The position numbers were made by a program, and so were the translations under genes. Below, in pieces: positions 8,501-11,500 of a stretch of 64,000 bases of DNA (the stretch's first letter is position 1; every line of letters begins with the position of its first letter). The notes beneath the pieces were generated by a model. It was given only the letters and a program-made list of their open reading frames with translations. It had not been told where the DNA came from and did not search any database. Location of the stretch: positions 13,963,291-14,027,290 of the forward strand of contig OX439137.1 in the NCBI GenBank assembly GCA_949318235.1. Direction: 5' to 3'. The stretch is from Ecdyonurus torrentis. Lineage: Eukaryota; Arthropoda; Insecta; Ephemeroptera; Heptageniidae.

Positions 8501-11500
8501 TACTCATTTGAAACCCAATCTAATTTACCATTTAAATAACTTTTGACAGCTACTAAAACACCCCCTCCACTTCTATTTCTATCACGTCTGAATAAATTAT
8601 AACCTTCAAGTTGCAGCTCTGAATCTTCAATGTTATTATCTAAGAATGTTTCACATAATACAACAATATCTGGCTCATGTATATCTACTTTTGTCTTAAA
8701 ATTACTTAACTTATTCATAATACTACGTACATTTATCCCCATTACTCTAATTATATTTTCACTGCTAATATTTCTGATGTTATTTACTTCCCCCCCTTGC
8801 TCCTTACATGTAGTAGCTGCCTCACTTGATGCTCATTTTAAAGGAGCACCTTGCTTAACCCTCTCTATAAGTTGCCCCATCTCAAACTCAGCTCTTCGAT
8901 GAACCCACTTATCTTTAGTATCATCCCACCATCCTACTTTTGGCCCGAGCCAACCCCATGGGTCTAAGAACCACACACTACTATCAATTTTCATTATTTG
9001 CTCTTTTAATCCTTCATTTAATACTACCACATCATTATTTTTAATATCTGAATGACCCGATACTCCAATGACACACATTTTAGCTTCTGGATGAACTCTA
9101 CGAGCCTCACTTACTACTTTTGACACTAGGGCGTGGACTTCACTTATATTATTTTCTTTAATATTCTTACAGATTGATGAATTAAGACTAATTATAACTT
9201 GTTCATAGTCATTGTTGCTATCTTTGTTTTCTAATTCACTTAGTACCTCTACAATTGACTTTTTAGACTGTATTTGCACCTTCTCAGACTCATTAATACC
9301 GACTTCACAACCATTAATACTGTTGTCACCTATTACATAAGTATTTCCTACCACTGGTTTTGTAACCCACTCCTTTTTTACTACTGTTACTTCAATATTT
9401 GACCCCCAAAATACATTGTTGATGCCCTCACTTACTACATCCCAATTTAATAGATCCCTCCCACAAGCAATTTTTGGCAGTGCAAGCTCAACCACCCCTA
9501 GTTCATCACATTTTTTCCTAAGATTTATTAAACATTTGTTTACATTGGACATAGTTGGCTTCCCCCAAGCTTGTTCCTTTGTTACCAACACAAATATTTT
9601 CCTGTTGCCTCTGTTTAATACTCCCACATCACCCACTTTAAGATTTTGTGCCTGAAGTTCCCCCCTCCCCCCAAATTTTGAATGTATTTTAGCCGCAATA
9701 CCCATTCCCATCAGTAGATCCTTTGAGACGCAATGCCCTAAAGATATCCCATCCCCTTCTTGCAGTAAGTTCCCTTCTTTATACTTATACCAATTTTCCC
9801 TTTCTGACTCTGTACTATTTGTATATGTATGAACATCTGAACTTGTTTTAACATTAATAATATCCTGTTGTACCTTAACATTATCTATTTCTTCAACTAT
9901 TTTTTTTAGTTCTACATATTTTTGCTCAAGTTTGTTTATTTCATCTTTGTAACCTTGTATCTCATTCATAAATTTAATTTTCCAAGAATTATACAGTTTT
10001 TGCTCTAACGACTCCCATTTTTCATTGAATTTTTTCTCTTTGTACTCATTTTCTACTTTCTCTCTCATTTCATCTTCAACCTTCTGTTTAGCCTCTCTTT
10101 CAACCCTTTCTTTCATCAACACTTCTTTAACCTCATCTATATTCTCTTTCCACAATTTTTTGAAATGTTCCTGTAACTGACTTTCATTTAAACAATTTTT
10201 GCAGTTATTATTTTGAGGTGAACTTGATACTCTACTACCTCTGTTTAACTTCTGAGACTGTTGACATATTTTACATAACCATGGTGTGTTTTTGTCTTTT
10301 CTCAATTTGTTGTATGTCTGATCATTAATTCCTATACACCCAATATGATACCATTGCCCATTACACTGCTGACCTTCACAAGCAAGCCCTTTATCTCTAT
10401 CTGCGACTTTGCTGTTACAACTCTTACATATTTCTTTTAAACTATCCTTTTTACTAGCCATAATTTACAGCAAATTAAAAATTGATGTTTTGTTATCATT
10501 AAATTACACTACATCTAAACTTTATAATCTCCTACTCGATCATGGAAACTTCTAGAAATCTAAAAGATCGCGTAATAATATAAACTAATATTTTAATTTA
10601 AAAATAGAAACTTAATACTAACTATTGTTTAAGTAATCAACTTAATTATAATTAAAACGAAAATAATAATTAATAATATCTAAGAAGACGATTTAAATCT
10701 AAAATTACAGCATATGTACGCCGAGAATATCTAATAGAATGACGTTCTAGAACGCCAAGTCAAATATCTCTTATATCTATATAATTACTAAGAAATTTTA
10801 CGAAATAACACTTCCTAAGATAACTTAAATTATAATTTACTTAATTGTAACTAAATATATCCTAAAAACTACTACTTATCCTGATAAAACATCGAAATCT
10901 GAGGAGCACTCAAAACACGCTCTGCATTCTCAGCATAAAAACACTTTCGTCGTAAATAAACAAACTAGATTCGTGTTTTCATTTTAATTTAAGCCATGCA
11001 TTATTTCTCATGTATCTTATTCTTATTCATGAAAGTGTTAGCAGTATGTATGTACATACATATTTATGATATGTACCCGTATGCATATGTATGTATGTAC
11101 ATACATCATACATACATAATTATGTCTGTACATAATACATACATACACCTATTATATGTACCAACACTGTAGGAATAAGTTACAAAGCATTTAGTAATGG
11201 TAATTGTATGGTATGTAATAGGACTAGTTATCGGCAGCTTAAGGGTCTTAAGGTTGAAATTCCTATATGTAGTATTGTTGAGAAAAGCAGCCAAACAGAC
11301 ACTGCCGCAGTTATTGACAACCCTATTTATCTCGGCCCCCTCTACTGATAAAAAAAAAGTTCTAAGTAGACAGAATTCTAAGATGGTTCGTTCTAGTTAA
11401 AATAACGTAAACGTAACACTTTCGCCTTAAAAAGAGCCTGGTGATAACTGCGGCCTGCCCGATAACTACATAGTACATTTACATACCATATTACTAGTTA

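Follow-up and report, generated by a model that had tools for sequence, protein, structure and literature searches.

The ORF1 protein of a LINE in this 64,000-nucleotide stretch of Ecdyonurus torrentis DNA (the window, by which we mean the whole stretch analysed) carries a TARG1-type macro domain with an intact-looking active site. We consider it probable that this ORF1 works as an ADP-ribosyl hydrolase of the TARG1 type within the element's RNP, where it would erase ADP-ribose added by the host; catalysis, substrate and benefit are what we infer.

The macro domain occupies ORF1 residues 226-362 (9376..9786, minus strand). A phmmer search of the PDB returned human TARG1 as its nearest solved relative (E about 1e-27, 42% identical), while DarG profiles and structures gave weaker matches than TARG1, and Pfam Macro was matched above its cut-off (E 2.9e-7). 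The initial annotation, made from the sequence alone, had read this part of ORF1 as a macro domain of the TARG1 subgroup and had set a structural match to macro domains as the test of that reading; the PDB search, the structural model and the fold matches bear it out, with human TARG1 the nearest among solved structures, and the motifs and residues that it quoted (HCVS, GMGIA, SKFGG, TKEQ with K295, and ACGRD with D336) are all found in place. By alignment and by fold match, K295 (codon 9577..9579, minus strand) corresponds to the catalytic Lys84 of human TARG1, and D336 (codon 9454..9456, minus strand) to its residue 125. That residue is Asp in the human TARG1 chain in the PDB and is given as Glu in a review (PMC7050489). 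K295 is invariant in the 71 rows of alignment A3, as is D336 (71/71, including 33 viral rows fetched by a pattern that demands the Asp). Of the columns conserved to 95% or more among 70 TARG1-type rows, the window domain retains 18 of 20, versus 20 of 57 among those conserved to less than 50%. Position 231 (codon 9769..9771, minus strand) is Asn in the window domain, where TARG1-type domains usually have Asp; the sister copy L094 has Asp there.

The element that carries this domain is read from the minus strand. ORF1 (8833..10461, 542 aa) is an open frame with Pfam matches to Macro and PHD, and consists of a putative PHD finger, a predicted long coiled coil, the macro domain and a C-terminal part. 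The TGA that closes it (8833..8835) is in frame with ORF2, giving a frame of 1505 codons with a single internal stop. ORF2 (5947..8742, 931 aa from its first ATG, in a frame open from 8832) encodes an APE-type endonuclease and a reverse transcriptase (Pfam RVT_1 E 4.4e-33, Exo_endo_phos_2 6e-8, Exo_endo_phos 2.9e-6), and its nearest solved relative is human LINE-1 ORF2p (PDB, E 3.8e-21). With both enzymes in ORF2, this is an APE-type LINE, in agreement with the LINE context that had been proposed for ORF1, and its motifs suggest that it is CR1/L2-like. An (ATT)n-type simple repeat at 5849..5872 (minus strand), read from the sequence, is its probable 3' end. The first ATG of ORF2, at 8742, and the ORF1-ending TGA share one frame, and the first conserved Asn of the endonuclease is presumably the residue found only a few positions after that ATG; ORF2 may thus be made by read-through or from a non-ATG start. 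The ORF1/TGA/ORF2 junction is common to three copies, those in the window, at L092/L132 and at L093.

When the genome was searched with ORF2, 49 match rows were returned, of which 16 are 86-100% identical; a single copy can account for more than one row. There is a second full-length ORF2 copy (rounded identity 100, open frame 961 aa) in which ORF1 is 5'-truncated, and at L092/L132 ORF1 is present only from about residue 274. Both dispersed copies and 5' truncation are therefore seen for this element, as in APE-type LINEs. Only the window copy matches ORF1 across residues 1-542 (80 of 84 candidates scored). It lies antisense inside the apparent first intron of a UTP18-like gene on the plus strand, which runs from 5597 to beyond 15240. 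The exons of that gene were placed by eye (putative exon 1 with its ATG at 5597 and donor at 5681, the next exon from 11789), and a later exon, the sole one so confirmed, has human UTP18 as its best match (PDB, E 2.3e-5).

Outside the macro domain, ORF1 is less easily assigned. The putative PHD finger (residues 12-66; 10264..10428, minus strand) is found by Pfam at E 4.8e-4 and 20.5 bits, under the cut-off of 24, and by PDB search, in which Pygopus PHD fingers are the nearest solved relatives (E 4e-6). Residues 93-199 (9865..10185, minus strand) are predicted to form a long, coiled-coil-like helix (block pLDDT 49-85) in a single-sequence AlphaFold model of the whole ORF1, which is poor overall (mean pLDDT 44.5) and was set aside for fold assignment. 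The C-terminal region (residues 371-542; 8836..9351, minus strand) is poorly modelled (block pLDDT 37-74) and gave no convincing Pfam or PDB match, SGNH esterase included; an SGNH-like order of strands and helices seen there by eye is unsupported by these searches. RRM, CCHC and Tnp22 were not matched in the window ORF1 by Pfam.

The window ORF1 was searched against its own genome (503 Mb in 117 contigs). There are 69 matches, most of them limited to the macro domain, and we examined 30 loci, the other 39 being weaker; as the loci were retrieved with the window ORF1 as query, the best-conserved ones are over-represented among them. With EN and RT queries from several families, LINE EN/RT was found downstream on the same strand at 21 of the 30 (L091-L093, L095-L101, L104, L108, L109, L111, L112 and L114-L119, with L116 included for the EN and RT frames that adjoin it). 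All ten downstream frames tested have an APE endonuclease in Pfam (E 6.3e-5 or better, eight above a cut-off), and RVT_1 is above the cut-off in six of six further frames. By similarity there are about eight or nine LINE families (the window family; L098-L101; L095/L097; L096/L112; L108/L109/L111; L115-L118; L104; L114; and L119), which marks the module as a maintained ORF1 type. Identity places L094 in the window family, although the stretch examined contains no EN or RT; L106 has an RT on the opposite strand. No EN/RT was matched near L102, L103, L105/L113 (which overlap), L107, L110 or L120, nor in another 3.6-4 kb downstream of L102 and L110 (L127, L128).

The equivalents of K295, G334, D336 and W340 are each present at 20 of the 20 readable LINE-linked loci, the window included; the remaining one, L093, has no letters at these positions. 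The retention of the TARG1-matching Lys and Asp, first claimed for the window copy, thus extends to every A3 row and to every such locus. Position 231 is more variable, with Asp at 13 of the 21 LINE-linked loci, Asn at five and no letters at three. Among all macro rows compared, Asn replaces the Asp equivalent to D336 only in the first repeat of L105, a frame that has two macro domains in tandem, lacks LINE parts and lies at the position of L113. Ten other macro frames, nine LINE-linked and L110, have no match at E <= 0.1 to a PHD finger, RRM or CCHC, and Tnp22 was not matched in them; Pfam Macro reaches its cut-off in four, falls below it in five and has no match in one, and phmmer with the window domain recovers all ten at E 1.6e-17 or better. 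TARG1-like frames with no LINE parts found nearby occur at L102, L103, L105/L113 and L107, and the host TARG1 family may have expanded. At L110 (619-2982, with L128), the macro domain of a 788-aa frame is flanked by long stretches of repetitive and Pro-rich sequence, and no EN or RT was found within about 4 kb past the frame.

In some sister families, the macro part is under purifying selection. Its dN/dS is 0.08 versus 0.84 for the rest of ORF1 in L115/L116 (Fisher p 1e-5), 0.11 versus 1.09 in L116/L118 (p 0.0012), 0.11 versus 0.33 in L095/L096 (p 2e-6), 0.14 versus 0.52 in L096/L112 (p 9e-5), and 0.07 in L098/L106, where the rest is too short to compare; dS is above 1, and so saturated, in several pairs, and pairs share members. 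Constraint on the macro part is seen in five of 12 pairs, the other seven being uninformative or near or above 1. The younger pairs have few changes, with macro dN/dS from 0.27 to 1.80 (L115/L118 gives no value, as dS is 0). Young family C copies show no constraint (L108/L109, 1.80 with 8 changed codons; L108/L111, 1.26 with 5), and within the window family the values are 0.89 with L092 (7 changed codons) and 0.43 with L094 (5 changed codons). The initial annotation had made purifying selection on K295 and D336 in sister copies a test of its reading: their retention at the readable LINE-linked loci and the low macro dN/dS of some sister families speak for it, while the window family has too few changes to tell.

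It is part of our preferred explanation that a TARG1 gene supplied the module, in one or several captures. In the macro trees, no supported group unites the window domain with animal-type TARG1 rows, and the window family has a long branch; the LINE domain L104 groups with the non-LINE L102 of the same genome (96/96 and 98/98 in two trees). The AU test does not reject a tree in which all LINE macro domains form one clade (p-AU 0.105, or 0.263 without L104). In the RT tree, seven macro families form a clade (99/97 to 100/100) to which the window family does not belong; the latter lies with five fetched families, L143-L147, where we found no macro domain, and the long branch of L116 falls on the same side as the window. 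Placing the macro families in one RT clade gives p-AU 0.0005 with L146, 0.12 without it and 0.075 also without L116, and L146 looks truncated, so the absence of a macro domain there is uncertain. None of the 33 ORF2 rows outside the window family has one of the 69 ORF1 search matches within 8 kb. In 30 of the 36 pairs of families, the macro domains are more nearly identical than the RTs, and the two can diverge in either direction (L095-L119, RT 52% and macro 34%; L095-L098, RT 34% and macro 54%). Forcing the L119 macro domain beside its RT kin L095/L096/L112 is not rejected (p-AU 0.113). These mismatches between families suggest that the macro module may have been exchanged between LINEs or captured repeatedly, and ORF1 modularity has been described for LINEs of the CR1/L2/Jockey superfamily (PMC4120745). 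A TARG1-like gene on a 78.8 kb IMG/VR contig (L012) groups with animal TARG1 in one tree, although not firmly in another, and may be eukaryotic or from a eukaryotic virus.

Human TARG1 (OARD1, C6orf130; ALC1-like macrodomain class) shares with the LINE domain the fold, the catalytic Lys and Asp, and the loop and TK motifs, but it is a host enzyme in its own right, about 150 aa long, whereas the LINE version is one domain of an ORF1 beside a putative PHD finger and a predicted coiled coil. The DarG antitoxin macrodomain, a DNA ADP-ribosyl glycohydrolase, is without the second dyad residue (PMC7050489), and the DarG-like phage row L009 has Gly at that position; the window domain keeps D336 and so does not show the DarG combination of a retained Lys with the second dyad residue absent. 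The CR1/L2/Jockey ORF1 types I-V of Metcalfe and Casane 2014 (PMC4120745) share the arrangement of an ORF1 with an APE/RT ORF2, and an N-terminal Pygopus-like PHD finger, putative in the window ORF1, would make the latter similar to the PHD-bearing type III. That survey of 448 elements names RRM, CCHC, Tnp22, PHD, esterase and zinc finger/leucine zipper, and the word "macro" is absent from its main text. The SGNH esterase ORF1 (type IV) of ZfL2-1 (PMC3905857) is a precedent for the capture of an enzyme domain into a LINE ORF1, although its fold and chemistry are unrelated to the macro domain and esterase was unmatched in the window ORF1 by Pfam and PDB searches. Among the matches listed from the open-access literature, we found no description of a macro domain in a LINE ORF1, and this seems to be a variant of the known LINE ORF1 types, with an enzyme domain that we did not see in the survey (PMC4120745). 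Neither the full ORF1 nor the macro piece alone matched a public protein at E <= 0.001, the searches being word-based and therefore weak evidence of absence. An alignment query including human TARG1 found 2765 proteins, most of the 120 listed being named OARD1-type and from animals; the search admitted lengths only up to about 255 aa, which kept out LINE ORF1s of full length. Viral contigs scanned with the single macro piece gave no match, and with alignment A1 gave 145 relatives, of which 80 were kept.

How might such an enzyme serve a LINE? The coiled coil would anchor the hydrolase in the element's RNP, and the PHD finger would perhaps bring the ORF1 protein to chromatin. By analogy with the mechanism proposed for TARG1, the ribose would be attacked by Lys295, and the covalent intermediate that this leaves would be resolved by Asp336. 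The most likely use would be to clear ADP-ribose added by the host from the element's RNA, cDNA or ORF proteins, which would let translation, packaging and target-primed reverse transcription proceed. TARG1 removes thymine-linked ADP-ribose from ssDNA, with a K84A mutant unable to rescue cells or bacteria (PMC8501950), and uracil-linked ADP-ribose from RNA, with fly homologues active (PMC13036486). As these are substrates that an RNP would meet, the element's RNA and single-stranded cDNA are natural candidates. TARG1 also acts on MARylated proteins and releases whole polymers, and RNA ADP-ribosylation has been suggested to help in recognising hazardous RNAs, for example transposon-derived ones (review, PMC7050489).

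A wider proposal seems to us rather doubtful, namely that several deeply separate LINE lineages of one genome took up or exchanged host TARG1 as a means of removing the ADP-ribose with which the host marks retrotransposon RNA or cDNA. If true, nucleic-acid ADP-ribosylation would be an unrecognised anti-transposon defence in animals, and macro-ORF1 the standard countermeasure. LINE ORF1 proteins are still little understood and seldom contain enzyme domains; an ADP-ribosyl hydrolase maintained in them would suggest that ADP-ribosylation matters at some step of the LINE cycle, and macro-ORF1 LINEs offer a testable natural system for the role of RNA and DNA ADP-ribosylation in animals. The macrodomain strategy is known from viruses, and macro-ORF1 would tie transposons to it.

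The initial annotation had proposed a narrower form of the hydrolase explanation, overlapping with it in probability, in which a host response is blunted because PARP marks at the target site are reversed by the enzyme. PARP2 is activated at L1 nicks (PMC8535693, PMC8210275), and the action of TARG1 on MARylated proteins and whole polymers (PMC7050489) would suit this role. However, human L1 retrotransposition drops on loss of PARP1 or PARP2 (PMC8535693), so that erasing the marks could harm the element, and PARP2 helps to recruit RPA to L1 sites (review, PMC8210275). Human L1 is the one LINE studied, and the aid that it receives from PARP1/2 would count against a purely antagonistic role at the nick, which we think possible but unlikely.

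Somewhat less probable still is that the macro domain binds ADP-ribose on chromatin or repair proteins and brings the RNP to nicked or PARP-marked DNA, catalysis being unneeded. The resemblance of the PHD finger to Pygopus chromatin readers, the action of PARP1/2 at human L1 target sites (PMC8535693, PMC8210275) and the service of macro domains as readers and erasers alike (PMC7050489) are in keeping with this, yet the Lys/Asp pair kept at all readable LINE-linked loci would be superfluous for a pure reader, and no PHD finger was found in the nine other LINE macro ORF1s. We give even less credence to the idea that the domain is the RNA-binding or assembly core of ORF1, used for its fold or surface with hydrolysis incidental. 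The failure to match RRM, CCHC or Tnp22 in the window ORF1, the nine other LINE macro ORF1s or L110 means that some other part must bind RNA, and the macro part is under more constraint than the remaining ORF1 in four pairs; but the active-site columns are kept, beyond what the fold alone would ask, and RNA binding could fall to charged linkers and coiled coils. That the domain is a captured passenger without function, still readable in young copies, is very improbable: several young pairs have within-family dN/dS near or above 1, but the low macro values in older pairs, with the remaining ORF1 looser in four, and the excess of macro over RT identity in most family pairs argue otherwise.

The rest of the window includes three satellite arrays of 171-180-bp units at 21437-27138, one of them apparently in reverse orientation to the other two, with short palindromic stretches. 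A long (TTTC)n array at 16584-16904 is a source of spurious open frames on both strands, and a 322-aa frame at 60229-61197 on the minus strand has several C2H2 zinc fingers in Pfam.
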